From: Siphonodentalium dalli
Taxonomy: Eukaryota; Mollusca; Scaphopoda; Gadilida; Siphonodentaliidae
Direction of reading: 5' to 3'
Assembly (NCBI GenBank): GCA_032622095.1
Contig: CP136067.1
Coordinates: 134,417,990-134,481,989 of the forward strand
Length of the DNA stretch: 64,000 nucleotides
Positions within the stretch are counted from its first letter, which is position 1. Each line of letters opens with the position of its first letter. The translations under genes were made by a program, and so were the position numbers. Under the pieces are notes generated by a model that saw only the letters and a list, made by a program, of their open reading frames with translations, had not been told where the DNA came from and did not search any database. Below, one piece after another: positions 1 through 62,020 of the stretch.

Positions 1-864
1 GTTGATACCCCCCCTGGGACAAGGCTTAGTACCTACGTAGGTACTCTGAAGTACCTATTGTTTTAAGAGTGTAGGGTTGTATCATCTGCGAATGATAATA
101 TATTTAAAGATGTGGATACTGACATATCATTGACATAAATAAAAATATTGTTGGTCCTAGGACGGACCCTTGAATGACACCACATGAAACTTTGGATAGA
201 CTGGAGATGTTTCCACTATAATCTGTATATTGTCGCCTCTCTGATATGTAGTCTCTAAACCAATGATTAGCAGTCCCCCTAATACCATAGTGTTCCATCT
301 TATTTAGTAGGATTTCATGACTTATTGTGTCGAATGCTTTTGAAAGGTCAATAAATATTGCTAATGTTGAGTCTTTGGTTTTTTTATCGTTCTGTTCAAC
401 ATGATTTAAAAGATGCATTACTGGATGGATGGTGGAGTGCCCCTTCCTAAATCCGTATTGATGTTTATAGAAACGGGCATGTTCATCAAAGAAATCTATA
501 ATTCGCTTTTGCATAATTTTTTCGAGTATTTTTGAAAAACATGGTAATATGCTGATGGGTCGATTGTTCGAAAAGTTTTCTTTTTGTCCACCCTTGAAAA
601 TCGGTATTACTCTCGATATTTTCATTTTCTTCGGAAAAACTCCTTCTTTGAATGATTGATTGAATATGTGTTTAAGAGCTTTGGCTGTTTCATAATTAAA
701 TGATTTAATCAATCGATTTGATAGACCATGTACATCTTTACTTGCTTTAACTTTAAATGAGTAGCATGTGAGTATTATTTCCCGTTCTGTTGTTTCAATT
801 ATTTCTAACTCATCCGATTCTCTATTGATCAAATAATCAGTGTAATGTATGCTGACTTCGTCAA
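1..864 (-). pseudogene. LINE reverse transcriptase segment (decayed, non-LTR, CR1/Jockey-like)
   Basis: This is the reverse transcriptase half of a non-LTR retrotransposon ORF2, which would copy element RNA into the genome at a nicked target. Visible in the reverse-strand translation (832 down to 104) are the fingers motif SRVIPIFKGG, NNRPISILP, the YGFRKGHST block, the first catalytic aspartate in AIFIDLSKAFDT, and GVIQGSVLGPT. The frame then breaks; the second catalytic box FADDT is found in another frame at about 81-92, followed at once by a stop codon at 63-65. The gene is therefore dead. Its upstream endonuclease half lies at 2,248-3,646, and the two were one ORF before the transposon at 874-2,238 was inserted: the frame on both sides of that insertion is continuous once one copy of the 9-bp duplication is discounted. 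The clade (CR1 versus Jockey) is uncertain. Confidence 0.85.
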
Positions 865-873
865 CATTTTCAC

Positions 874-2238
874 TAGTCCAAGTCTTCTTGTACTAAAACC
901 AGCTAAGATATTGGGATGGCGATGCTGGCGTTTAGTCCAAGACCGCCCTATATGCTCGCTTATGACACGGCTTAAGCGTTAGTGACCCGCTCAAATAAAA
1001 CCACAATTATATGAAATAAAATATCACAATTGCGACAATAAACGGATATTTTCCGCAGAACACATGCTATTTTATCTGAAACCCACATCAGTTGTGAATT
1101 TAAAACGGTAATTTAATGCGAAAAGATACATTTACCTCAATGTTTACAATTTTTTTAAAGTATGCGAACTCGGTTGACCTCGCGAACTGTGTTCGGCATT
1201 TTCCGTTGAAAATATTCCGTAGATTTTGGACAACAACGCAAATTACGAAGAATTCTCCATTGTAATCGTAATTATGTGTGTCAATAAATAAAATAATAAA
1301 TAGATTAATTAAACATTGGAGATATAAATGTAATACATTAAATAAATTACGGGGAATTACAACCCTCTCAAAGTTTAAAACAGTGTAAACACAACGAGTA
1401 TTAGAATAAATAATATGGTGCTACATTTCCCACATTTGGTGGACTTCGGCGAAATTAAGATATATACTAAGCGAACAGAGCAATATACTGCTCTTGTTAA
1501 GCACACAAAAAATCAAACAAAATTTGTATAAATTTTTAACCTTAAGTTTGAAAAGTCCCACTAAAACGGAAGAACTATATTTCGAAACTGTGTGATTCGG
1601 TTCTGCGATTATTTTATCAACACAAAGGTCGAAATGCACATGGACGAAAATCACACGGATGGAAAGTCAGACACAAGAGTTCTAATTTGCTCCAATTTTG
1701 ACAAGTTGCTTGCGAAAATTGTCAACAAAACTACCTTTCTGATCCTCCATTATGTCATTAAGTTTTTAGAGCGGGAATTGTTCTCAAAGCACATTGGAAA
1801 CTGGACTTTGCGGCGATCGGTTTTCGCTATTTTGTTCGGAAAACCCCGCGCTATATATAGAATCGGAAAGTAGAATTCTCAGAACAAACAGCGGATTATG
1901 CCGAACTTATTCGGACCACTTCGACTTTCGGTTAAAACGTAAACAAACAGAGAAACAAATCGATGTTTATGGCAATCAACCGGAATATTCTATGTGTAAT
2001 TTAACATTAAAGTTAGATTATTATACACCATTGTGACCATAAGATGTAAGCCTTTCCGATGTATATAGCATCATGTATTGATTTGCTAGGTAAATCGAGT
2101 AAAATACACCACAGATTCCCGCCACAGATCGTGGGCGTAAGTCGTGTGGTAGGATTGGTATGCAAGCGGGCTTGGACTAAACGCCAGCATCGCCATCCCA
2201 ATATCTTAGCTGGTTTTAGTACAAGAAGACTTGGACTA
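874..2238. mobile_element. 1,365-bp MULE-like non-autonomous DNA transposon, 68-bp TIRs, 9-bp TSD
   Basis: The element has terminal inverted repeats of about 68 bp (874-941 and 2,171-2,238) that read as essentially identical when one is reverse-complemented, and it is flanked by the 9-bp direct repeat CATTTTCAC (865-873 and 2,239-2,247). Long TIRs with a 9-bp duplication are the usual signature of Mutator/MULE elements; the superfamily is an inference because no transposase is present. The longest internal ORFs (93 aa or less) show no transposase motif, so the element is non-autonomous. It sits inside the ORF of the surrounding LINE. Each TIR also begins and ends with the same direct repeat TAGTCCAAG, a possible double transposase-binding site. 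Confidence 0.85.
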
Positions 2239-2247
2239 CATTTTCAC

Positions 2248-3646
2248 CAGTCAAGTTTCCAATTTTTGAGAAGTATTCGTTGAATCGTTCCGCTATTTGC
2301 TCTTTATGTGTTATCTTAATTTCACCATCGATAAATGCAATTGGAGGACTATGAGGGTCACAATTTTTATTCATGGCTTGTTTTAAGAGTGTCCACGTCG
2401 CTTTCATGCCATTCTTTGCATTGTTAATTTTCTCGCAATAATATTGTGTTTTTCTGTTGCGTATTGTTCTCTTATATACGTGATAGTACTCTTTGTATGC
2501 ATTCATATTAGCGTTTGTCGGAGATTTTAATTTACGAATATATAATTTATTTTTCTCTAATGAAGACTTTAAAAGTCCCTTTGTCATCCACGGTTGGTGC
2601 TTTAAATATTTCGTTGGTGGTTTGTGGTATTTTAGTGGGAAAGCAGTATGGTATGCAGACATATATATTTCTAGAAAATGGTCATAACCTTCATTTGCTG
2701 ATTCACAGTTTAACACGTCTTCGTAACTTGATGTTGACAATGTATCTTTGAATTTGTTTATGTTCCTTTCACTAAAAATTATAAATGGTTCCAAGACAGA
2801 TGCTCCATTGCGAGATCTTTTAAAATTTGAACGTTCGATATGAAATGTCGCCAAATGATCCGAGACGTCTGTAATGATAATGCCTGATGTTCTTTCAGAC
2901 AGGTTGTTAGTGAAGATATTATCAATTAAAGTAGCAGAGTGTTCAGTTATCCTGGTTAGTTTCGTAATGCTTGGAGTGAACCCGAGAGTGAAAACGTTAT
3001 CGAGGAATGTACGCGTTTTTTCATGATTGTCGAAATTCAAAAGATCTATATTGAAGTCACCTATAAGATATGCTTTACAGTTTGTTTGATTTAGTTTAGC
3101 CATAATGCCATCAATCTCTTTCATAAATTTGTCAATATCTGCCCTCGGAGCAGTGTTTGGTCTATATATGCTGCCAATTATGCATCGATTTGGTTTGCCC
3201 GGATTAAGTTCAACAAAAATCGTTTCTATCACATGTGGAATAAATACCGATAGATCAGGTCTTGCACAATGTGAAAGATTTTCCCGAATAAAGAGCCCGA
3301 CTCCACCTCTACCGTCATCGGTTTCTGGTCTTGTTTTGTATTCGATATTCTGATATCCGGATAGGGAGAATTCTGCTGCGTTATTTATTTTAAACACTTC
3401 GCTTAGTGCAATTATATCAAAGACATTTTCTTTTTATTGTGTTTCAACCAAAAATTGAGTTAATGAATCCCAATTTGCATTTAAGCTCCGACAATTTAGT
3501 CCCATTATTAAGAAGTCGCTTGATTCTTTTCTTATTTCTGTTCTAAATTGTTCAGGCGAGAAATATTTACAGTTTTGGTTTACCAGGGTAAAGTCCACAT
3601 GGGGAGTATCTTGATCATCAAATTCTTGATAGAGTTTGGCACCCAA
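2248..3646 (-). pseudogene. LINE endonuclease (APE-type) and linker segment of the same element
   Basis: This is the upstream half of the LINE ORF2: an apurinic-like endonuclease that nicks target DNA to prime reverse transcription. From 3,397 downward the translation shows GGVGLFIRENL, the metal and catalytic motif LIGDFNIDLLN, TLIDNIFTN, and the terminal ISDHLATFHI (the SDH motif of APE endonucleases), followed by a long linker rich in Lys and Tyr with ...YFSKIGN. A further N-terminal piece with LNCRSLNANWDSL, the usual start of the domain, lies in another frame at 3,434-3,646, so there is at least one frameshift and a stop near 3,434. It joins the reverse transcriptase half at 1-864 across the inserted DNA transposon. 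It is not functional. Confidence 0.88.
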
Positions 3647-3659
3647 ATTATATTGTGAT

Positions 3660-4885
3660 AGTTACTGAATCTCGTCTAAGTTTAATTCAGCTATTGTCGA
3701 CATAAGTGGATGTAACGTATCTTTGATTATAATTGACCGCGCATTGATATATACATGTAGTAATACAGATATTCATATGATCACTGGAATTGTTATATTT
3801 ATGAATTTTCATGGTTGAATCTGAAATAGTGTTTATATATTGCGATTTTCGTCGTGGTTCTATGTCAGAATGTGACTCCGTCGACAACTATTGTTATAAA
3901 GGCTGAAATGGTTTATGTTACATTCAACAGACTGCATAATACATTACCACGCAAACAAAATATATAATACAGATACAAACAAGTACATGAGAACAATATA
4001 ATAATAGAAAACGTTAGCATAACACGTTATTTTAACGTAATTTATAAACACATTAAAGCTCACACCTATCTGTCACTGAGCTCTTGACATTATAATTTAA
4101 TCGGTCCATGAGAGACAACTCTACTTTGTATTGTAAGCTAGTCTATAGAAAAATAAAATAAAATAGAGTTGCCTACCCTGCTGTTATGCATATAATATAT
4201 GGACCAGGTCACTATATCGCGACTGGCATGTAATGTGTGACACACATCAAACCGTGATTTTGCACGAGACTGTCGTGTCTCGTGGGCCGATGAAGTTTCA
4301 ACTACGTGCGGGTTATACGCGGAGGGGTGCTTCCATTTCAACAGGGAATGTAATAAATCTGTTTGTAATTAGATACACGTTTGTTTACGACTATGGGTTA
4401 CTCTTCACTGCATATCGCATGGTAATGCAATATTATTTATGGAACTGAACTTTTCAACATATTTTATACATATTTACCACTATTCCAATATACGCTGATA
4501 TAGTTAACATTGCAAACCACCCCTATTTCTTAATTTCCAACGACCCGCGTTAGTGACCCCACAATATACTGTCAGGATTCTTCTTATTTGGGACGAACAG
4601 ATTACTGAGGTATAAGAAAGTAGAGAAATCTTTTTGAAACGTTTCGTGATATTTGGATTTTTGCAGCCTATATACATGGTCTTAAACAACTAGGTTTGTC
4701 TTGTTTTTATATGATAGTATATTTTATGTATCAAATACTGTTATACCCATTATTCGTCCGTTAAGAGTGTATCGTGCCTCCTAATAGAGAGGTTCAGCAA
4801 GGTTTACCAGTAGCTTTTCATAACCGTAGAAATTATTAGGGGGGTTCAGTTATGAGATATTTGGGTCCCTTTTAAAGATGCATTT
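3660..4885. other. AT-rich stretch upstream of the LINE, no gene seen
   Basis: Short ORFs on both strands (70 aa or less) have no recognisable domain or convincing splice sites. Part of the left end may be the 5' untranslated region of the reverse-strand LINE. I see nothing else that can be supported. Confidence 0.5.
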
Positions 4886-4888
4886 TTC

Positions 4889-5240
4889 ACAAATAGACAA
4901 CATATGGAATAATTTGGGTACTTTTGAGAATGCTATTTTCCACAAATAGACAACACGTGGAATAATTTGAGTCCTTTTGATAATGCTATTATTCACAAAT
5001 AGAGAGCATAATAATGCAATAATTTGTGTCGTTTTGAGATTTTATCTTCTTTATTTTTTTTTATTTTTTTATTTTTTGGTCCATCTGAGGCATCCTATTT
5101 TTCACAATTAGATAACATTGAAATAATCTTGTTACTTTTGAAGCATGATATTTTCACAAATAGACTAATTTGGATCCTGATTTGGCTACTTTTGAAACAT
5201 GTTTTTTTTTCTCTTCACAAATAGACATATGAAATGGTTG
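4889..5240. repeat. Degenerate tandem repeat, ~57-bp unit (TTCACAAATAGACAACAT...)
   Basis: About six imperfect copies of a unit containing CACAAATAGA followed by (T)GGAATAATTTG and CTTTTGA can be read in succession. Copies 1-3 are clear; later ones have drifted and are broken by a poly-T stretch at about 5,046-5,080. It is non-coding. Confidence 0.7.
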
Positions 5241-5795
5241 CGTCCTTTTAAGACATGATATGTTTGTTGACCTATACTTTTATTTGCCAGAGTTATATTC
5301 ACTTGTAATAATCAGATAATTAATAGCTTACTGCTGTTGGCAAACTTCAAATATCGATTTCCCAAGGCACACTTTCGAACTCGATATTATAACATACAAT
5401 TGCAGAATGCCAATGCAGCAGTCAGATCCATGTCAAATATCCCGTTTGTATTTCCCAATTCGGAAAGTGATTTTAATTAAATAATTGTTAGATTTTCATC
5501 TTCGCCACTTTTGATTTTGTTTACGTTGATTCTTCGAAGGCAAAAGTTGCCCAATCTGGATACTCGTCTAACGGACATTGTGAATTTTTACAACACCAAG
5601 ATTTACATAATTATTGTGTTCTTATTGTTGTAATTAATGTTCCTGTGCGTAATTATAATGTCTTTTTTGTTGCATGTATGGCAAGGCCGTATACAATTAT
5701 TAGTGGCCGAGCAACAACATTGGCATAAAATCGTTCACAATGTACTGCGCCCAAGGCTTTGACAGACAAATATTTAATTCAATAACTATGGAAAA
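5241..5795. other. No gene seen
   Basis: AT-rich DNA without a recognisable domain, RNA gene or inverted repeat. Confidence 0.4.
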
Positions 5796-5796
5796 A

Positions 5797-5862
5797 ACCT
5801 CTAGAGGTGTATATAAAACCTCTAGAGATGTATATGAAACATCTAGAGATGTATATAACACT
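5797..5862. repeat. Three tandem copies of a 21-bp unit (ACCTCTAGAGATGTATATA)
   Basis: Three successive copies of a 21-bp unit differing by a few bases. Because 21 is divisible by three, a short ORF (5,740-5,985) stays open through it, but there is no other coding evidence. Confidence 0.7.
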
Positions 5863-6017
5863 TTCTTCACTAACTACTCATTAGAGAGGAAATCACGCTT
5901 TTTGAACATAAGAGGTCGAACTTGCATCACATTTCGTAGTACCGACAACAATATATTTAGACCAGGTATATATGATTGTGACTAGAGCACTTTTGTTCAG
6001 AGCGATCATCTTTTATC

Positions 6018-6052
6018 TCTACCCCCCCCCCCCCCCCCCACACACACACATT
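6018..6052. repeat. Poly-C tract joined to (CA)n
   Basis: About 19 C residues run directly into a short CA dinucleotide repeat; low-complexity sequence only. Confidence 0.9.
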
Positions 6053-24518: not shown

Positions 24519-26640
24519 CAACCACAATAATAATAATGTATAACATTTTTAAAGCGCCTTATCCTATGAGGCCCAAAGGGCTCAGTGATACAACATATGA
24601 CATAGCTCCAACACATTCAAACACATATACGCATGTACACACAAACCATAACTACAATGAAATAAATCAATCAATTCATATACAAATCAGGATGAAGGCT
24701 GAGTATATTGTATAACACAATGCAGGAAATATGTGCTTAGCTTTGGTCGTCGTCGTTGCCATAGTGAAGTTTAAACAGATAAGTGTTGAGTTCTGTTTTG
24801 AAAGATTCCAAAGTAGCAAAATTCCTAAGTGTAAGCGGGAGTGAATTCCAACGGTTTTGGGCCATAGCATTCAAAAGATCGACGACCATAATTAACAAGG
24901 TCACGTTTTGGGACAGCAAGTAATATTTTATCAGCAGACCTTAAGCCTGGTTTACCAGTTACATAGCATGAAAGAAGAGATTCAATATACACATGGAGAG
25001 GCGAGAGACAGTCAAAGTTCTTACAACATAAGACAGCAATTTTATAGTCAATACGGGCTTAGCCAGTGAAGTTCTTTGAACATTGGTGTCAGGTCAGAAA
25101 ATTTAGGCTTCTTAAGAATAATGCGAGCAGTAATGTTCATCATACGTTGAACTTTATCAATTTATAACTTTGGTAGACCAGCCAGAAGTGGGTTACAGTA
25201 GTCAATCTTTGAAAGAACAAATGACGAAACAAAAGTTTTAGCAGCATCGGTGGTTATGAATGGCCTGATGTGAGAAATTCTCCTTATATCCAGAAATAGA
25301 CTTCTGCATAAATTGTTTATATACACTTACAGAGTACTGTCTAGGAGAATGCCCAGATATCTGACACACGACGATGGCTTTATGTCGGAATCACCTATAC
25401 GAATGCAGTCCAAATGAGTGTTCTTAATTCTGTGATATGTTCCAAATAACATTAACTCGGTTTTGTCATCATTTAAACACAGTTGATTTGCGCCCATCCA
25501 GCTTTTCACTGCCTTAATACATTGCTGCATTTCTGAGATGTTGATTGCCAACTCCGATGGTGAGCTGGGCATATAAATCAGTGTATCGTCTACATACATG
25601 TGGTATTGTATATTTCTCTGTGTGATGATTTGACCCAATGGTTTATTGTACTTGAGATAAAGCACGGACACAAGGACAGATCCCCCCTAGGGACACCAAA
25701 GGATAGTTCATATGGTTTGGAACAGAATTCACCAATTTGAACAGTCTGGAGTCTGCCTGATAGATATGACTTGAACCATTGGAGAACTTTCCCTGACATT
25801 CCGAATGTTTTGTTAAGGCGTGAAGTTATGATGTTGTGATCCAAAGTATCAAAGGCAGCAGAGAGGTCGAGAAATGAGGCTATAGTGACATTGTGATCAT
25901 CTGCTGCACAAAGCAAGTCGTTGGTGGCGCGGACAAGTGCAGTTTCCGTGCTGTGGTGTCGTCGATAAGCCGATTGGAAAGGTTCATTCATATCGTTATC
26001 CTCCAGATGTTGTCTGAGTTGATAGAGCACCACGCGCTCAAGAAGCTTGGATATAAAAGGAAGGTTAGAAACAGGTCTATAGTTCTTTAGATTGTTCCTA
26101 TCCATGTTTGGCTTTTTCAGCAATGGTTTAACCACAGCTTGTTTGAAGAAAGTGGAAACTATACCGTCTTCCATGGATGTATTCATTTTATCCTCGTAAG
26201 AAAAGTTACTAGTGAACTGTTGGTCGTTATGCTGTTTTAGAATGAGTGATGGTACAGGATCCAGAGAACACGATGTTGATGGCATTCACATGGGGACATG
26301 TTTGACCGTCTCTGTTGAAATACATTCAAACTTAACAATTTTGGTTCCAGTGAATTCCTCAAACTCAGCTTCTCCTGTAGACAATTGTTGTATGATAGCC
26401 CGAATGTTCGTAACTTTGTCTTGAAAAAATGAGGCAAATGTTTCTGGGAGTGTATCCATGGGAATGTCACTAGGTAGAGTAGAACATTTATCTTTGCCCA
26501 GCATAGTGTTGGTAATGTTGAACAGTTTCTTGGTTGATTTGCAATTTGCTACTTGTTCACTATAAAAGTCAGAGCTTGCATGCTTTATCAACTCGCTTAC
26601 ACATGTATTCATTTCCTTGAACACAAGCAACCAACGTAAT
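24519..26640 (-). pseudogene. CR1/L2-type LINE, 5'-truncated, RT with YVDD box, frameshifted
   Basis: Reverse-strand LINE ORF2 remains. In order: a linker (SSDFYSEQVANCKSTKKLF), the RT motifs VVKPLLKKPNMDRNN and YRPVSNLPFISKLLERVV, YRRHHSTETAL, first catalytic box SFLDLSAAFDTLDH, a damaged GVPRG box (normally GVPQGS), and in another frame the second catalytic box YHMYVDDTLIY. RT thumb remnants (HIRPFITTDAAKTF, KIDYCNPLLAGLP) and the C-terminal WNSLPLTLRNFATLESFKTEL follow in further frames. The 3' end is TTTAAAAATGTTATACATTATTATTATTG (complement of 24,521-24,552), a CR1/L2-like triplet tail. Several frameshifts and stops show it is inactive. The 5' end fades near 26,640 before the endonuclease. 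Confidence 0.9.
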
Positions 26641-31614: not shown

Positions 31615-31994
31615 TTCATCGCATGATCAACACATACTTCTGAGTGTGACTTGATGTGGTGTTGGAAAAAAACGGTATTTATCTGGCGGGTCCGCTTGGA
31701 ACTTGTTCCATTAGAAAGTTGGTGTATTTGTTTTTTAATTTTGTATTGATTTTTCAAATGTAGGTCATGCGATGTTATTTCTAGAAAAATATCTGAAAAG
31801 TATATTTATTGCGAACTTGTATAACTTATCTAGCTGTTCAATGATATGCCTGCTTTGGTTTTATTTCCAGACAACTGCTTCAAGCAACACTTTTGCTCCG
31901 GAGATTTGCATGGAACTCCCCATTCAAAATTGTTCACTTGACCTCCCCTTAAGATATAATTTTTCATTTGGTAACAATTTATCAACTCGCAGCT
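31615..31994. repeat. Second copy of the 1.1-kb repeat, left piece
   Basis: Matches 28,925-29,245 (shared TTTTTCAAATGTAGGTCATG, GTATATTTATTGCGAA and TTTATCAACTCGCAGCT), and stops abruptly at 31,994 where the composite insertion begins. Confidence 0.85.
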
Positions 31995-31997
31995 CAG

Positions 31998-32662
31998 GCC
32001 GGCGCTTGTATTGCGCTGCAAAAGTATCAAAGCACCCACCTAAATGCACTAAAGTCGCCAAGAATCGATTGGTGATGCAGTGGACACTGGCTAGGACGGG
32101 AGAGGGTCCCCATGGCACCAGAGCGCCGTGCTTGTTTTGTGCGTGCACAAAACAAGCGCAGAGGCTCTGCGTTCTGACCAAGGCGTAGTAAGCTTACTGC
32201 AGTCGCAGAGGAATTCTTGCTGCGACCACGCGTAGCTTGTATCCGCCCTTGCTACGTCAACGGGGCGCTAATGTTGCTCGCTTGGCGCTGTCAGAGCGCC
32301 GCGCTTGTTTCGTGCATGCACAAAACAAGTTGTGCATGCACAAAACAAGCACAGAGTCTCGGCGTTCTGACCAAGGCGTAGTAAGCTTACTGCTTGGATC
32401 CGTCCTTGCTACGTCAACGGGGCGCTCATGTCGTTCGCTTTGCGCTGTCGTTGCGACGGCACTGCGCCTGGTAAGAACGCAGAACCTCTGCGCTTGTTTT
32501 GTGCATGCACAAAACAAGCGCGGCGCTCTGGCGCTCACGGTGACCCTCTCCCGTCCTAGCCAGTGTCAACTGCGTCATCAATCGGTTCTTGGATACATTA
32601 GTGCGCTTTGCTTGGCGCTTTTATAATGTTTCAGCGCAATGCAAGCGCCGACCTTAGCGCAG
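31998..32662. mobile_element. ~665-bp GC-rich foldback element
   Basis: The arms around 31,998-32,190 and 32,460-32,662 are inverted copies (GACACTGGCTAGGACGGGAG at left is found reversed at right). Short palindromes TTGTTTTGTGCATGCACAAAACAA recur inside it at least three times. It is much richer in GC than its surroundings. ORFs across it (up to 138 aa) are by-products of the palindromes. Confidence 0.8.
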
Positions 32663-32949
32663 CGGAGTGTGACAGTGGTTTAATCGGACAGCTAATCTAT
32701 TGCGGATTGTTGGGTATATTCCCCACAACCTAAAAACCGACTATGACTAGAGCAGCAGCGAAAGGATTTGCGTTCCCGCCCGAAGGGCGGCACGAGGACG
32801 GCGGTGGGCTCATCCGAAGATCGCCCTTACGCCCTGTCTTGAATCTTCTTGTGTCTTTAATCTTCAACAGTCAGGCCGCGGATCGGGTGGAGAAGTCTTG
32901 AGGTCGGGATTGGTCGTAGGTGTCTCGAATCTTGTCTTGAGAATCTTCA

Positions 32950-33030
32950 CTTGGTCTTTACCTTGTACTTTTGCCTTGATATATGTTTTGATCTTTGCCT
33001 TGATCTTTGCCTTTGCCTTGACATTGTCTC
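32950..33030. repeat. Degenerate (CTTTGCCTTGAT)n tract
   Basis: Runs of CTTTGCCTTGAT and shorter variants, read on the reverse strand as AAGGCAAAGATC. It lies between the hairpin array and the downstream end of the RT-bearing unit. Confidence 0.75.
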
Positions 33031-33040
33031 AGCATATTGG

Positions 33041-33332
33041 AAAATGCGGGACGATCCAGCGAAGACGCTGGATTGCGCATTTTCAGTTGGTTGTCGACGC
33101 CCGGGACCTTCCAATGGAGGCATTGGACTGCGGGCTGCTAAGAGAGTATGGGACGGTCCAGTGATTCCACTGGACTGCGTGTTCTCTTCTGTTACCGCCC
33201 GGGACGGTTCAATACTCCTTATTGAACTGCGGGACTTTTCTTATGCGGGATACGGACTGTCTAGCATCGCCTGCTTGACTGCGTATCCTAAAACCCGAGA
33301 CGGTCCAATAAGTCTATTGAACTGCGGGTTTT
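33041..33332. repeat. Array of six hairpins with variable stems and constant internal loop
   Basis: Each unit reads: outer stem ending CG, GGACGG (or a close variant), a 7-nt inner stem of type TYCARYR, a 4-5 nt loop, the inner complement, a 3-nt CTG (TTG once), then CG plus the outer complement. Unit 1 (33,041-33,083) pairs AAAATGCG with CGCATTTT and TCCAGCG with CGCTGGA. Unit 5 pairs GGATACG with CGTATCC. Unit 6 (33,290-33,332) pairs AAAACCCG with CGGGTTTT. Units 2-4 start near 33,099, 33,141 and 33,198. The stem sequences differ between units while pairing is kept. On the reverse strand the array begins one base after the stop codon of the RT fragment, i.e. in its 3' untranslated region. 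Confidence 0.85.
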
Positions 33333-33333
33333 T

Positions 33334-34480
33334 TCAGCCACAGAGAAGCTGTTTGCGTTGAAAACACTCAATCATTTTCGCCAGTGTACTTTCCGCCAGA
33401 TCGCGCAGGCGCTCTCTGATGGGTTCCACGTCAGCGATGGTATGCAGATCTACAATGCGGGTGTCATACGGTGCTTGCAGTGCCATTCTCAGGGCTTTGT
33501 TTTGTACCAACTGAAGCATTTTGATCGCGTGATTTGATGCCAGGTTGGTGACCACTGATGCGTATTCCATGATTGGTCTTACGAACGTTTTGTAGACTTT
33601 AAGCAGAGTGGCCATGCTAGCTCCCCAGGAAGTTCCTCTCAGCCGTCTGAGAAGATTAACTCGCTGCATGGCCCTCGTGGCTGTCTGCTTCACATGGGTT
33701 AGGATAGTGAGTCTGGTGTCCAAGGTGACGCATAGGAAGGTTACCTCTTTTGCGGAAACCAAGTCAATGCCACTGACATTGAGAGTTTGACCACCGACTT
33801 GCGTTTTCGTTTCGTAAATAGGGCGAATTGTGTTTTGTTCGCATTGAGCTTACTGCGCCATTTCGAGCACCACCTTTCCATGTCAACGAGGGCCCGCCTC
33901 AGTTTGAGCTTCACATACTTTGTACTGCCATTGGTGATCCACAGACCCAAGTCATCACCGAACTGCGACAGTTGCACTTGGTGCCTCGGGTCTATTTCAA
34001 TGTCATTGACGTAGAAAATGTAGAGCAATGGGCTTAAAACTGACCCCTGTGGTGTACCAGCGTTCAGTGGAACAGAGTCCGACGATTCTCTGTCCACCCT
34101 CTCGTTTATTGAGCGGTCGGTGAGGAAAGAGGATAGGAGCCTTACAAGTTTGACCGGGAGGCCATACTTGTGTAACTTGTACCGGAGGCCGTTGAACGCT
34201 TTTTAAACGTTAGGTAGCACTGTACCAGTTACCCATTTTTTGTGGAAGCCACTGCGTATGTCCTCCACAAGCCGGTAGATGTGTTCTACCCATTCGCATC
34301 CGTTTCGATATGCCCTCTGCCATTTGTTGAAGAATAAATTATTCTCCAGATGGTTTCGGAATCATGATGCAATTATTGCTTCGAATAGCTTGCCGATGCA
34401 GCTAAGAAGACTCATTGGTCTGTAATTTCATATCTTTGCCATTTTTGGGTATCATGATGCCGATTGCCTCTTCCCACTAT
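33334..34480 (-). pseudogene. Non-LTR reverse transcriptase fragment (Jockey/Nimb-like) with GDD box
   Basis: Reverse-strand RT remains in several frames: IGKLFEAII and fragments of the fingers and palm at 34,480-34,100 with internal stops, then a clean stretch with GTPQGSVLSPLLYIFYVNDI and QFGDDLGLW (the second catalytic box, GDD instead of the usual ADD), CSKWRSKLNANKTQ, a frameshift near 33,750, and the thumb/C-terminal part (GVTLD-like VTFLCVTLDTRLT, VYKTFVRPIMEYAS, NKALRMALQAPYDTR) ending ECFQRKQLLCG and TGA at 33,334-33,336. It would have encoded the polymerase of a LINE. Missing endonuclease, stops and frameshifts make it inactive. Its 3' flank is the hairpin array. Confidence 0.85.
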
Positions 34481-47805: not shown

Positions 47806-48620
47806 GTAGGTAACAAGAAAACCAATGTCAGAAATGGTAACGCGCTCAAGATCATATATTATATATCCATGGTTGTAATTATGGAATATAAAATATATTG
47901 GTTTCGTGAATGACCAACACATAATTCAGTTAAAATAACAATAACAACCAGCAGCTAATTAACGAACAGGCGGCCGACTCGGCCGTCTCCGACCACAATC
48001 CCCAGTGGGCTGCAGAACGAAAAATGTCTATAAAAGTTTAAATATAATACTTACAAATTATCTTTTTCATTTCTTTTATTTGCCATTGATATAGCTTGTC
48101 ACAAACTTAAAATCAACATTATTGACATAATAATGTAAAGGACAATAAACTAAATTGAAATTCCCAACTATACTCCTTTTACCGGACTCGGCCTCAGGGT
48201 TGCAGTTCGACTTTTAAATCCGTCCCAAAAATTCCCATTTCTATAAATAAAACCCCCAGCGCCCATAAGATACACAAATCTCTACATTAGTATACACGCG
48301 GAGCGCGGAATAATTAACCCATCGTCTAAATCAAATCATTTCGTCTGGTCTACATATCAAAGCTTTGACCTATTTGAAGAGGAATATACCCCCTATAACA
48401 TATTCAAAATCGACTTTGAGAAGATGTTTTCAGAGATTTTAAAATGCCAATTTTTCGGCCTTGTGAAGTAATTTTGTATACAATATCCATTATCGGCTAC
48501 TCTAGAGCGCCTTACTCATTCATCCGATATATATCAGTTTATGTGAAATCACGAGAGAAAATAGAGTGAGGACAGAATATAATGCAATCGCTATCAAAAT
48601 TGCCATATTATTGTTTCAGA
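47806..48620. other. No gene seen
   Basis: AT-rich DNA; no supported feature. Confidence 0.4.
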
Positions 48621-49895
48621 GTCTGATGTTCATAACGTTGTTTCAGCTTCTGTGTTTGATGATTGTTCACTGAACGTTTCAAATCATCGCCGCGTCCATG
48701 TTAGTTTAGGCTTGAACGTTCAATCCGAAACCGGAAACATTCTTTTAAATCCGTGCATACAATACAAATGGAAATCTTTTTCACGTGATCCAGAATCAAT
48801 TTTACGGTATAAATCTAGAGTAGAAGCATGTCTTCCAGACTTCGAGATAACAGACAACGAGTCTGTAAACATGTATTATGATCGAGTGGTTTCTGCTATT
48901 CACGCGTCTGCCAATAAGGAGGTTCCAAAGCGTAAATACAAAAAAAAACATATTAAACCATACTGGAACACTGAATTGTCAAATCGTCATAAGTACATGC
49001 GTGAGCTAAGATTGCAATGGATATCCGAAGGAAGACCTACATGTACATGTTCTCGGTACCCTTCGTATGTCAACTACAAAAACGCCAAACGTCAGTTTCG
49101 CTCAGAACATAGGAACACAATGTACCAATATTTGGCACAATGTGACGCAGAACTCGAACAAACTGCTGAGATGGATCAGGAACTTTTCTTTCACTTATTA
49201 AACTCGAGACGCCGTAGAAATCGAAATAGCTGTTCGACATACTTTGAACACACCGGTAAGGTAATTCGTACTCCAGAAGAAGTATATGAGGCCTGGTCTT
49301 CGTACTTTGAATGTCTTTATGCACCACTAAATAGTGATTACGTTCAGTGATTCATGGCATACACATGTTGAAGATTTCGTGAGAACAGAATATCTCAGAT
49401 CAAACGGCGATCCTATTGATATCAAGCTATGTTATCCTGTCACATTCGAAGAGCTCGCGGATCTGCGTGCCGCTCCTACCAAAAACAAAGCGCAGGGTTT
49501 TGACAAACTAAATTATGAACATATAATCTATGGCGGCGATGAAGTATTACACAGAACTGCTTACATGTTCACCAAAATACTCCAATCTCATCACGTTCCG
49601 GATAAATCCAAGCTTGGAATCATGGTTCCCCTCCACAAAGGAGGCACAAAACCCAAACACTTATTTGATAACTACAGGGCCATTACCATTCTCCCCGTCA
49701 TATATAAATATCTTGAGAACGTTATTCTGTCGCGCCTCCAAAATAATGTTGAACATCTCATTCGGACTAACCCTCTCCAATACGGGTTCCAGAAAGGTGT
49801 CGGGGCAATGATGGCCTCATATATGGTACAAGAGTGTATATCATTCGCTATGGAGGGAGGCAATAAACTGTACTCGCGCACGGTAACATTCGACC
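48621..49895 (+). pseudogene. LINE fragment: endonuclease end, linker and start of RT
   Basis: Forward-strand LINE remains in two frames that overlap near 49,334-49,350 (frameshift). The first part begins near the end of an APE endonuclease (SNHRRVHVSLGL, SDH changed to SNH) and continues through a Lys/Arg-rich linker. The second part enters the RT fingers: KNKAQGFDKLNYEHI, GIMVPLHKGGTKPK, NYRAITILPVIYKYLENVI, LQYGFQKGVGAMMAS. Similarity ends after TVTFDQ, exactly before the first catalytic aspartate motif, so the palm is missing. Inactive; 5' and 3' truncated. Confidence 0.88.
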
Positions 49896-50109
49896 AAGTT
49901 GTTATCTGTTATTTGATTGACGAATTTTCTGTAATTTTCAATTCACATTGCGAAAGCCGTGAGGGCCTTGGTGTAAACAGCAGTGCCTTGAATCAAAAGG
50001 TGTGCATAGGTACCGAAATGCACGTTACAGAAAAAAGTGTGATGTCAGGGATTCGACAATCTTGTCATGCTCACACTAGGCATTTCATTTTAATATGTAC
50101 ACAGCCCAC

Positions 50110-50640
50110 CTGTGTTAAACAAAATATTGTTCGGTGATTGGTCAACTGCCAAGTGGGTCACCCGTTTTATTCCCCAATAACACACAGACCGTAACATGAA
50201 CACGACGTCACAAATTGTTGACCTAATCTGACATAATCATTAATAGCGTTCAACAGAATAATTGGTCGTACTTTTCAGCCGAATTGCATCTGACGCCAGT
50301 TATTTATATCGACCACGTTATCGTTGCTAAATGCTTGGCGATCTTATAATGGGCTGACTTAATGTGTTGAGTGAGCTAGTCTCAAATAATCGGAAGATGT
50401 GAAAATAAATAAGAATACATTCAGTTTTTTATGGGAATAAATCATCAAAAAGCTATACAAATATAAGAAATTGATGAACTAGATGTACGTGTTATCTGGG
50501 GGATACGGCGCTTTAATTGTTGTGTGCACATTTAGTGAGAACTTCGCGGTTCACACAATATGCCCCAACGACCACAGCGCCGTATCCACGAATAACACAC
50601 ACCCACTACATTCATTTCTTAAATAATATGTGTATACACC
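50110..50640. repeat. Dispersed ~0.5-kb repeat, copy 3
   Basis: Close to the copy at 43,407-43,915 along nearly its full length; its end (CATTCATTTCTTAAATAAT) also matches 40,971-41,430. Confidence 0.85.
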
Positions 50641-55737: not shown

Positions 55738-56810
55738 ATATGATAGGATAGGATAGGATATTTTATTTAAATATACATATATTAAAGCATAATACATTTG
55801 ACAAATATTATGTTGTATATTCGAGGGGTGGCATAGTCAGGCTAGACTGTCTTAATGCCACCCCCTTAAAATGAAAAGATGTTATGATAGGCGGTCATGA
55901 TTTCTTGTACAATGCACGGCTATATAATTATGTATCACACAATGGCTGTATTATATACATGGAGGGTATACGTCTAGATAAATTGTTTATTGGTTACTCG
56001 ATGGTTTGTCTCTTTCTTGTCAGTGGGTTGTTCCTTGAAAGTCGAGTAGGAAGTACTGAGTGAGGTTGAGGATTGCGGTATGGGGGAAGTCACTTATTGA
56101 GGAGCTACCACACAGTCGGGACATCTTTGATTGTTGCATTTAATTGTTGCAGCATATTTTTTAATGCAATCGGCATGTAAACGTCGTTTAAATGTGTGTC
56201 TGGATTGGTATGATGTAAATTCGTTATCTAAGTTGTTCCATATAGTTGGAAAGGAATGAAATGGTAGTTGTTGGGACCAAGATGTTCTTGGTTTTTGTTT
56301 AAATAGTGGGTGCTTTTGCCGGGTGGCTGGTCCGGTTTTCCGTTTGGAAAACATGTCGGTAAATGATTCTATTAAACGCATATGATACCAATCATGCATG
56401 AAAACAGCCGCTTGTACTTTGTGGATGTCGTAGATTTTGAGAATATTTTCATTTTTAAAGAGAGGATCTGTGTGGCTTCTATATTTCTTATTACATATAA
56501 CTCGTATTGCGCGTTTTTGAAGCAAGAACATTTTTTTGACCGCAGGGACATGTCCCCATATTTGAACACCGTAGGCTAAATGGCTTTGTATTAGAGCATA
56601 ATATAATGTTTTAAGTGCGCTACCAGGAAAGAAGTGTTTAACTTTATTGATGTGGTATATGGCATTCACCATTTTTGAACAAACAGAGGACACGTGTTTT
56701 TTGAAAGTGAGGTTTTCATCTATATGGATTCCTAGGAATTTTGTGGAGGATTCGTGCTCAAGATTTCCTATCTTGTTTAGTTCCGTATTATTTAAGTAAA
56801 CCATTCTATT
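55738..56810 (-). pseudogene. LINE 3' fragment: RT thumb and C-terminal cysteine motif, (TATCC)n tail
   Basis: A 236-aa reverse-strand ORF (56,804-56,094) is the C-terminal part of a non-LTR ORF2: KFLGIHIDENLTFKKHVS, LKTLYYALIQSHLAYGVQIWG, LLQKRAIRVICNKKYRSHTDPLF, a late IWNNLDNEFTS block and a final CNNQRCPDC. It starts after the catalytic boxes, so no polymerase activity is possible. The 3' end carries a pentanucleotide tail, (TATCC)n on the reverse strand (55,738-55,763). The long intact frame suggests a fairly young, 5'-truncated insertion. It may be the same family as the LINE at 1-3,646. Confidence 0.9.
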
Positions 56811-57868
56811 ACTAATGCATGTACATCGTTGGAATTAGAAACGGGTGACACCCCTACCATTATTCAGCCAGTATTTACAGAAGAATATCTGGCCAAAGGT
56901 TGAACATATTCATATATGTCACAATTTTATAATATACAAGCTTGAATGAAAACATTTTCGATCATGATGCATGAACGGTGGGGGGGGGGGGGGGGGGGGC
57001 ACGAACGTTTTCGTTATGTAAGGGACTTGGTTAAATGTATCATATATCGGAATAATCTGGGCAAGAATGTACACTATATGTAATGTATTACTTAAATTGC
57101 CCATAGTTAGAAGTGCGGTCAAACAAATACGTAATGATTGGGTTGTCAGTGGACAAATATTACATGACCTGTAATTCTCCTGTATGTCATTAAATACACG
57201 ATATGTACGGAGATTACATGTGCACGCATGTGTGTATGCACCATAAAACTCAAGTGTCGTCTTTTATATTTGCGAACTAATGTGTTTACGATGTCCATGT
57301 TTTTAATCCAATAAAAACTATTTAAATTACAAAAAAGACAACTCCAACTACGTCGACTATACGATTTAAACATGATAAGGTCTGAAGTACGCGCAGTTGT
57401 AAATAAATAAATAATTCTTTATTGTTGGGACGAATTAATCACCATAAACAAAATGACAATCACTCCGCCAAGGTGAGCATGCACTACGTACTGCTAACCC
57501 ATGAATACCAATTACGTTTTGTGATGCCATTTTGATATATACCTTATGAGAATATGTGTAACACTTTAAGCAAGGGTTTTCTATAGTTCCGCCAAATGTC
57601 CACACGTCGTAGAGGTTTTCACATCACTTTAACCTGGACAACGCCGGACAACCATGCTGTAGCAGCACGGTATTGAAGGTTATGGACATAATGTATAGAA
57701 TGTTAGATTTAAATAAAACAAATATATTCATTAATTACGAGACCAAAATATGGGGATTTTATTTGTCCAAACAAAATCAGAATTGGCCAAATAATTGTGT
57801 GAATACGGTAGCTATTAGCGACCCAAGTTTGAAGTTATCCGTTTTTCAATGTAAACGTTTCTATTTAC
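56811..57868. other. No gene; poly-G tract at 56,981-56,999
   Basis: Contains the right end of the proposed sister element (57,130-57,243) and the 3' side of paralogue D. A possible exon for D (acceptor CCGTGCTGCTACAG) exists near 57,665 but encodes only ~10 residues before a stop and is not annotated. Confidence 0.35.
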
Positions 57869-59627: not shown

Positions 59628-62020
59628 ATTTTTCAATGCAAACGGATCCGACAGAACTGGCGGTGGTGTTGCTTTGATGTGTAGAGAAAACATAAAACTG
59701 ATGTCATCAACCAGCGGGGAAAAATCCTCGTTTGAATTCCTCGAGTGGAAACTTAAACTACACAACGATGTTCTGCGTGGCGTTTGCCTATATCGTCCTC
59801 CGTTTTCTGACAACCATCCAGTTACAACCTGCACCTTCTTAAAGGAATTCAAAGAATATCTTAAATCGCTGGTTGTGTATCCAGAAAAAACTCATCATCT
59901 GCGGTGACTTCAACATTCATGTCGATGATGTTAACGACGCCACTGCTCGAAACTTTGACAAACTCCTAGATTCGTATGGACTGACACAACACGTCACAAC
60001 TACTACACATGAATCTGGACATATTCTAGACCTCATCATCACCAGATGTTCAGACGACTTTTCCATAACCCCACCAACCGTGACAACTAAACTCTCAGAG
60101 CATTCCTTTGTGGACTGCACAATCAGCACCCTCAGACAGAAGTTGACAAAGAAAACTGTGACTTTCCGCAAAATTAACAACATCAATATTGAGAAATTCG
60201 ACAGTGACATAAAAGAATCAGATCTGCATAAACAACAATGGACTGATTTAAATGGACTTGTGTCTTGTTACAATAACACGTTATCCCAGCTGCTATCCAA
60301 AATGCACCAACTAAGACCAAAACAATAGTCATGCGTCCAACGCTACCCTGGTTCAACGACAACCTGAAAGTACTCAAAGCCGACCGGAGAAAAAAGGAGA
60401 GGACCCGAGGCACGTCTGCAGAACATGAAAGATCGTACTGTAATGCCCGAAACAAGTTCTCCAATCAACTAATGGAAGCCCGGAAGTCACACTACACCGA
60501 CTCGATCAACAAGTGCGAAGGTGACACCAGGCAACTTTTCAAAGTTGTGAAAAAGATGTGTGAGGAGAAACCGAATGAGACACTACCACCGCATGATGAC
60601 GCAGGACAATTGGCGGAGCAGTTTGGTGAATTCTTTTCTGAAAAGATAGAACTTATCCAAAAGAAGATTGACAACATCACCGTGAAAGCGCCTTGTGTCG
60701 ACAAAGGGGAAGCCACGGAAACGTTCACAACATTCGATGATCTCGACCTTGACGACGTCGTTAAAATCATCAAACGCTCTTCAAATGCATCTTGTGAACT
60801 CGATCCTATACCAACAACGCTACTCAAGAAATGTGACTCCCTGATACCTATCATCACCCAGTTGATAAACCTATCATTAAGCGAAGGACATGTTCCCAGT
60901 AGCTGGAAAACAGCCATAGTTCACCCTCTTCTCAAGAAATCCGGTGCTGACCTTGTTTTCAAGAACTTCCGACCCGTCAGCAACCTATCCTTCATTTCTA
61001 AATTGTGTGAAAAGGCAGTGATAGACCAACTCATTCGGCACAGCGAACAACATGCACCTCTTCCAATAAACACTTCTGCTTTCCGTCAACACCATTCAAC
61101 TGAAACCGCGCTGCTTAAAGTCCAAAATGATATTCTCTGCATGGAAACAAGAAAGGTCACTCTGCTTGTGCTACTAGATTTGAGCGCTGCTTTCGACACT
61201 GTCCGCCATGATATTCTTCTAGATACACTACAATCTGACTTTGGTGTTCGCGGCACTGCAGCTATCTGGTTGAAATCTTACCTCACGAACCGATCACAGC
61301 AAATATCCATTAATGGCTCAAAGTCTACAAATTTCCCCATCGAGTGCGGAGTTCCACAAGGAAGTTGTCTTGGACCCGTGCTGTTCTTATTCTACATTTC
61401 GAAATTATTCTCAGTTGTTGAAAGTCACCATGCTTTTGTCACGTCACACTTAGATTACTGTAATTCTTTACTGTATGGACTACCGGATTACCAGTGTGAT
61501 CGCCTGCAAAAGGTGCTAAATGCTGCGGCGCGAGTTGTATCATACACTCCTCGGCATGAACATGTAACTCCAGTTCTCAAGCAATTACACTGGCTGCCAG
61601 TGGAGTATCGAACCATGTTCAAAATTATTTTGCTTGTATTCAAATCTCGTAATAACATGTCATCATTGTATATACAGGATATGATCAAAGACAGAAATGT
61701 GTGTACATATGGATTACGATCTGATAGCAGTATGCTTTTTACATTCCTTTTAACAAACAGAAAACGTTTGGCGATAGGGCATTTTCATTTGCAGGTCCAC
61801 ATCTATGGAATAGCATGCCACCTCACTTGAAAATATTCACTGATTTAAATAAGTTTAAGACCGGCCTCAAAACATATCTCTTTGATGTAGCATTTAATTC
61901 CTAGATATATGTGCATGTACATGTATTAAGCTGATTAGGCAATGAGCTCGATGTAATGTAAAGCGCCGTTGAATTTGTACTCATAATATTGAGCGCTATA
62001 CAAATTAATTATTGTATTGT
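59628..62020 (+). pseudogene. CR1/L2-like LINE, 5'-truncated, in-frame deletion of the YADD region
   Basis: A forward-strand LINE lies in the intron of paralogue E. The endonuclease part (GGGVALMCRENIKLMSS, LIICGDFNIHVDD, ILDLIITRCSDD, LSEHSFVDC) has frameshifts near 59,885 and 60,325. A 499-aa ORF (60,331-61,830) then carries WFNDNLKVLKADRR, VHPLLKKSG, FRPVSNLSFISKLCEKAV, FRQHHSTETAL, the first catalytic box LLDLSAAFDTVRHD and GVPQGSCLGPVLF. It jumps in frame from SVVESH to HAFVTSHLDYCNSLLYGLP, so the second catalytic YADD box and ~100 residues are missing. The thumb follows (LQKVLNAAARVV, LHWLPVEYR), then a frameshift before the C-terminus. The 3' end is GAGCGCTATACAAATTAATT and (ATTGT)n, typical of CR1/L2 tails. 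Inactive. Confidence 0.93.

Follow-up and report, generated by a model that had tools for sequence, protein, structure and literature searches.

Results

A hairpin array behind the ORF2 stop codon of a LINE remnant

The window (the whole stretch of DNA that was analysed, 64 kb) carries a LINE remnant on its minus strand and, directly past the stop codon of the remnant's ORF2, an array of six hairpins; the features are collected in Table 1. The reverse transcriptase (RT) fragment of ORF2 was recognised as RVT_1 (1.7e-16), and a frame shift leads from it into the C-terminal part. Protein relatives are on record (93 proteins); a search with the C-terminal ORF2 part as query found none. Between the array and the 3' end that is common to the copies described below lie 279-286 bases (286 in the window copy).

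Table 1. Positions in the window of the LINE remnant, its parts and the six hairpin units
Feature	Position	Strand	Basis or remarks
Whole LINE remnant, 5'-truncated	32754..34475	-	alignment with other copies
Remaining LINE 3' UTR past the array, to the common 3' end	32754..33039	-	end of alignment with L029
Hairpin unit 1	33040..33084	.	outer stem 9 bp; end pair lost in subfamily C
Hairpin unit 2	33099..33135	.	5-bp outer and 7-bp inner stem; mismatch at the closing position in A, B and C alike
Hairpin unit 3	33140..33188	.	outer stem 11 bp including 3 G-T pairs
Hairpin unit 4	33198..33233	.	4-bp outer stem; T-A at the inner pair 33209/33225 in the window and subfamily A, C-G in B and C
Hairpin unit 5	33248..33288	.	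outer stem 7 bp; family-wide T-T mismatch
Hairpin unit 6	33290..33332	.	outer stem 8 bp; family-wide C-A mismatch; starts one base past the ORF2 stop
ORF2 C-terminal part, ending ..QRKQLLCG then TGA	33334..33849	-	open frame
Reverse transcriptase part of ORF2 (RVT_1), out of frame with respect to the C-terminal part	33744..34202	-	Pfam

The first-pass annotation had read six hairpins in a single array, and this array is confirmed at 33040-33332. Each unit is built from an outer stem of 4-11 bp, an asymmetric internal loop, an inner stem of about 8 bp and a terminal loop of 4-5 bases. The outer stems had been put at 4-10 bp, which is right at the lower end and too short at the upper, where unit 3 reaches 11 bp. 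An inner stem of 7 bp, as first described, is found in unit 2; the other five units have 8 bp, position 6 of the GGACGG strand pairing with the first base of CTG. Once this closing pair is counted, the constant internal loop is not 6/3, as had been claimed, but 5/2 (GGACG opposite TG on the plus strand). The closing pair itself is G-C in units 3-6 and A-T in unit 1, and its position is mismatched in unit 2.

Across the six units 86 of 92 pairs are Watson-Crick, whichever strand is read. Unit 3 had been said to hold its outer stem partly by G-T pairs, and the three such pairs are real, one being present in subfamilies A, B and C (defined below), one in A and B only and one private to the window copy. 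The single mismatches pointed out in units 5 and 6 are likewise present in all three subfamily majorities. Unit 5 of the window copy lacks one base of the constant internal strand, which is kept in the other 20 aligned arrays. The linkers between the units appear unrelated by eye, and the array as a whole can be read as three dimers of about 100 bases, in which odd units resemble odd units and even units resemble even ones. An open frame of 136 aa spans the array on the plus strand.

Adjoining the LINE end is a separate element (31992-32658) with long inverted ends of 123 and 66 bases, 82% and 92% complementary, which contains palindromes around GTGCATGCAC. Open frames that resemble remnants of other LINEs lie at 104-3433, 25590-26285, 48583-50137, 56094-56834 and 60277-61830, two of them confirmed by Pfam.

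Folding and covariation of the array in the window

The array folds at z-scores of -6.4 (plus strand) and -5.5 (minus strand), with none of 100 shuffles as low, and its antisense strand has a lower folding energy than its sense strand (-131 vs -114 kcal/mol). Short perfect hairpins (38 in the 64-kb window) are densest in the 300-base bin of the array, which holds four, the best bin clear of the array holding two. Folding energy alone is not unique to the array: in a rougher scan by bins (115 bins, up to base 34200, eight shuffles per bin), three other bins had a lower z.

Two-sided changes were found in 9 of the 18 pairs compared among the six window units, in 15 cells against 5.6 in shuffles (0/500), the outer stem of unit 5 being one column out of register in this count. 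Such cell counts overstate the number of independent events, because some changes are common by descent, as the dimer structure of the array implies. A covariance model, R1, built solely from the six units of the window, scored these units at 38.6-55.7 bits and gave no more than 14.5 bits elsewhere in the window; reverse-strand matches of R1 to the array itself reached 23.2 bits. On the five other LINE-like stretches of the window the model found nothing strong.

The array in the LINE family of the host genome

With the array as a DNA query, the host genome (2.23 Gb in 9 contigs) yielded 182 candidates, of which 40 were scored matches, one of them that of the window itself. The other 39 array-similar copies were fetched; they carry the array by selection. 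In all 20 copies with long flanks LINE sequence lies upstream of the array, and the placement behind the TGA, remarked at first in the window copy, is common to the LINE family. Three subfamilies were set by eye: A (7 rows, the window included), B (10 rows) and C (23 rows). Their median divergence in the array, measured from the group majority, is 1.7%, 1.5% and 0.3%, respectively, and the low value of group C indicates that the LINE family has been active recently.

The pair 33209/33225 in unit 4 is compensated between the subfamilies, with a T-G pair at this place in L037. Positions 33066 and 33182 switch between G-C and G-T in the plus-strand reading, the change at 33040 in subfamily C breaks the end pair of unit 1, and the difference at 33128 sits in the mismatched position of unit 2. 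The remaining differences between subfamilies are in loops or linkers.

The long copies have an ORF2 with APE endonuclease and RT and an ORF1 with knuckle-like CxxC motifs. Exo_endo_phos, Exo_endo_phos_2 and RVT_1 were found in L041 and also, in two pieces, in L045. The ORF1 matches to zf-CCHC_6 and zf-CCHC in Pfam are weak (E 0.003-0.72) and below the cut-offs, the CxxC motifs being visible in the translation. Tentatively, we class this APE-type family with two ORFs as Jockey-like.

The nearly identical 3' arrays of group C are joined to several 5' ends, about 15-32% different from that of L048 where alignable; 5' ends seem to have been exchanged between subfamilies. The 3' tail of L041 carries, near its end, an inverted piece of hairpin unit 5, which is likely to be the product of a template switch. 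Two pairs of same-strand matches, at G000:C6:213825569 and 213830849 (5.3 kb apart) and at G000:C9:84796444 and 84800797 (4.4 kb apart), have the spacing that would be expected of tandem LINE copies. The L045 copy (LINE at about 497-6037 of the locus) lies among tRNA genes, seven by Rfam. On its flanks a 12-base repeat, GACTGAGCTAGC, resembles part of a tRNA gene, so the copy may have inserted into such a gene; the flanking stretch read for L048 has no repeat of this kind. In the 5' UTR (from about 1861 in L045 and about 1725 in L048, sense strand, to the ORF1 start) there are two further related hairpins of a different kind, with CTAATT..TTCG or TCCG..AATTA and, by eye, outer stems GGTG/CACC and GGCG/CGCC.

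Next, copies were sampled through their RT instead of their array. The RT of a relative (P0002) used as query gave 147 scored places among 25702 candidates. Of these 3' ends, 38 were fetched, picked to span the match types, and their membership of the family was judged by the ORF2 end or its sequence. The module is present in all 14 RT-found 3' ends of the family (L089, L090, L092-L099, L101-L104), with two units only in L103 and a shortened array in L099 and L104; no family copy in this sample lacks the array altogether. None of the 24 fetched 3' ends of other families was scored by the covariance model, and seven of these (L072-L074, L091, L105, L106, L108) have one weak descriptor match in ORF2 coding sequence that the model left unscored. 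Several of the other families of the RT group have ORF2 frames of 928-986 aa. The 3' array thus marks one LINE family, and its absence from the fetched 3' ends of other families of the RT group indicates that a 3' array is no general need. The idea of a structured RNA region of the retrotransposon past the RT stop is supported by the RT-found copies and by the covariation.

A genome-contig search for RT gave five weak RT loci, all without the module. Matches of the motif pattern in viral contigs were rejected as apparent chance, L001 being a phage gene; the covariance model found no array in the viral-contig pattern matches L002-L015 (best 11.8 bits), and RT-based searches of viral contigs gave no matches. 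At gathering score Rfam, self-cleaving ribozymes included, had no matches in the window, and in L045, L041, L121 and L117 it recognised only the seven tRNA genes, all in L045. Comparison with Rfam turned up no family of this kind.

A second array inside ORF1

R1 also matched 4.5-4.8 kb upstream in L048 and L045, within the N-terminal coding part of ORF1 and in the same orientation. This second array begins about 50 bases past the ORF1 ATG. Among 20 five-prime windows of other copies it was found in five (best 4.8e-14) and not in the other 15, which may be truncated or out of register. Searching at the DNA level for the 5' array yielded 23 candidates with 41 matches; a 31-base pattern, allowed three mismatches at most, matched 24 times and its backward control never. 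Five diverged copies (L130-L134) were fetched for the 5' array.

The 5' units lie in one ORF1 frame (4/4 in L048 and L121, 3/4 in L045) and encode, for example, LQLSDVTGRSR, TQPSNETGRSR and LQPETNIGWSQ. A single frame reads through the 5' array in L110, L117 and L120; stops or frameshifts occur in the 5' stretch read of L045, L123, L132 and L133.

The 5' alignment comprises 30 units from eight loci, in 26 distinct rows. Three near copies of L117 (L110, L120 and L123) were left out of it, as was L133, which is broken and close to L134; unit a of L132 and L133 fails the descriptor. In the aligned units 90.4% of 312 cells are paired, as compared with 21-47% in slid structures, a share that is inflated because the descriptor tolerates at most three inner mismatches and one outer mismatch. 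Two-sided changes occur in all 12 pairs, in 72 cells against 24.2 in shuffles (0/500). The invariant columns are the C of the internal loop, its partner G and the last C of the bulge, and mismatches are frequent at the last two inner pairs (in 10 and 8 of the 26 rows).

When orthologous 5' units are compared, 46 pairwise cells are two-sided and 161 one-sided; random re-pairing gives a mean of 19.6 two-sided cells, and 11 of 2000 re-pairings reach 46. In unit a, the second outer pair from the loop is A-T in L121, T-A in L117 and C-G in L045, a compensated pair that changes ORF1 residues on either side (N/I/T on one, V/D/G on the other). In unit d two inner pairs change from C-G to T-A, L132 having U-G as an intermediate state, and in unit c L117 has G-C for A-T and L131 A-T for G-C. 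A counter-case is unit a of L134, which is left with C-A. Covariation of the stems, claimed originally for the six window units, is thus found by shuffle counts between units and in the independent second array, and it extends to the comparison between subfamilies.

Relationship of the two arrays and their reading frames

In its family form, 3' unit 3 is identical to 5' unit b at 29 of 35 core bases. Of the six bases that differ, four belong to two compensated pairs, a fifth lies in the loop, and the sixth determines whether an outer pair forms. Most simply, the module would have been copied from one end of the LINE to the other.

Successive 3' units fall in two alternating frames, and the distances between like units (96, 99, 105 and 102 bases) are all multiples of three. 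Past the ORF2 TGA, 28 of the 40 rows have an open frame of 83 codons, two have no stop within the stretch read and ten have a shorter frame, among them all seven group A rows; shuffling the array left a given frame open in 81 of 2000 cases. The compensated change of unit 4 creates a stop at codon 41 past the TGA in the group A majority. This change closes the frame in group A, so the pairing has been kept there and the peptide frame has not. The open frame may be a relic of an origin in the in-frame ORF1 array, or it could encode a read-through peptide in B and C.

Discussion

An account of function has to start from what was observed: a hairpin module whose stems covary, which the LINE carries at both ends, and a 3' unit 4 whose pairing subfamily A has kept despite closure of the frame. 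Read on the sense strand, the module starts with an outer stem that ends in a G-C pair. Next come C-A on one side and (C or G)-G-U-C-C on the other, where the C is paired with G, the A lies across from C or G, and U-C-C forms a bulge; about 8 bp of inner stem, topped by a loop of 4-5 bases, complete the hairpin.

We propose, with about even confidence, that the array is a cis-acting structured RNA element at both ends of the LINE, which would be bound by the element's own protein for the choice or arrangement of its template. The U-C-C bulge and the mismatch would be read by a protein, most likely the ORF1 or ORF2 protein of the element and, as a second choice, a host protein; a bulge repeated in arrays would suit an RNA-binding protein that reads sequence. 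Several sites per end could mark the full-length transcript as the element's own template, and they could gather the transcript into an RNP, for which the R2 protein, with structured RNA at the ORF start and in the 3' UTR, offers a comparison. The sense strand is preferred because of the positions of the arrays at both ends of the transcript. Wobble pairs favour neither strand, as G-U is hardly above A-C on the sense strand (19 vs 16 cells in the 5' units and 3 vs 3 in the 3' units). This is where the sense-RNA reading is weakest. A more specific version, which we put forward only tentatively, is that both ends carry the same multi-copy hairpin address, copied from ORF1 to the 3' UTR or in reverse, and that the element's own protein would bridge the ends and accept only its own full-length RNA.

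The structural evidence would serve equally well for a site of a host RNA-binding protein, repeated for avidity, that acts in export, stability, translation or localisation. For arrayed hairpins in a 3' UTR there is a host precedent, the six MAT2A hairpins methylated by METTL16 (PMC7927073). Even so, we regard a host protein as unlikely to be the main reader. The METTL16 nonamer UACAGARAA, searched as [TC]ACAGA[AG]A[AGT] on the sense strand, is absent from the window array and from 12 five-prime stretches, the Rfam match to MAT2A_B is at chance level (19.2 bits against a gathering score of 45, E 0.63), and the other fetched families do without a 3' array. A role in translation, in which the hairpins modulate how ribosomes initiate, reinitiate or terminate and might let them read through the UGA into the array, would account for a 3' array that starts directly at the TGA and a 5' array so close to the ORF1 ATG, and both the frame that is open for 83 codons in most rows, as few shuffles are, and the spacing of like units in multiples of three would agree with it. 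The stop at codon 41 in the group A majority, arising from a change that preserves pairing, argues the other way; the spacing may merely reflect descent from an in-frame ORF1 array, and a plain block to the ribosome needs no conserved bulge. We consider this role improbable.

Much the same judgement, if anything a little less favourable, applies to a structure that acts as DNA or cDNA, where hairpins in the first cDNA strand, or inverted repeats that are extruded, might serve, for instance, integration or recombination between copies. What speaks for it is the sense strand, which shows no clear preference of G-U over A-C, the lower folding energy of the antisense strand and the near-uniform group C 3' arrays on several different 5' ends, a sign of recombination. 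However, the arrays are placed with reference to the transcript, at its ORF1 start and its ORF2 stop, and the bulge sequence is conserved on one side only. Finally, the arms might have been kept complementary by mutation, without selection, through quasi-palindrome correction or template switching, and template switching does seem to occur, as in the inverted unit 5 piece of the L041 tail. Against this, the non-complementary loop strands are conserved in sequence and length while the arms change, and L037 (3' unit 4) and L132 (5' unit d) show possible step-wise intermediates; we hold such an origin to be very improbable.

If the element's own protein does read the array, the arrays would bear on how a LINE protein chooses its own RNA and a full-length template (cis preference), which is an open question for most LINEs. 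To our knowledge, a repeated-hairpin template code has been described in no LINE. The family offers a natural system for a direct test, with a repeated, mutable module at both RNA ends and young copies with long open frames, and the related families without a 3' array in the same genome are built-in controls.

The literature searched contained no element with such a module, a result that does not establish its absence from print. A k-turn has tandem G-A and A-G pairs beside a three-base bulge; this identity was rejected for the module, whose bulge-adjacent pairs are G-C and C-G on either strand. Multi-hairpin packaging signals, such as the retroviral psi reaching into gag and the coat-protein hairpins of MS2, resemble the arrangement proposed here in that repeated protein-binding hairpins lie near the start of the first gene; unlike these, a LINE has no virion.

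UnaL2 has the 3'-end stem-loop of a stringent-type LINE. In LINEs of this type (SART1 and plant LINEs) a stem-loop of the 3' UTR is thought to be read by the element's protein, as here proposed, and the plant stem-loops have a variable stem with conserved flanking and loop bases (PMC3747384). Theirs is single and near the 3' end, whereas the array described here extends from the stop codon to about 280 bases short of the 3' end, and the window family has a second array in ORF1. The 3' UTR of MAT2A, with its METTL16 targets, also has six hairpins with a common motif (PMC7927073), but MAT2A is a host gene and its motif is UACAGAGAA.

In R2, as is proposed for the family described here, structured RNA is found at the ORF start and in the 3' UTR of a non-LTR element. 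In R2 both are bound by the protein, which uses the RNA from the ORF start and that from the 3' UTR in competition; its 5' RNA includes a pseudoknot, and R2 has a single ORF and an rDNA target (PMC12203849). The LINE family of the window differs from it in having two ORFs, an APE-type endonuclease and one small module that is repeated at both ends.
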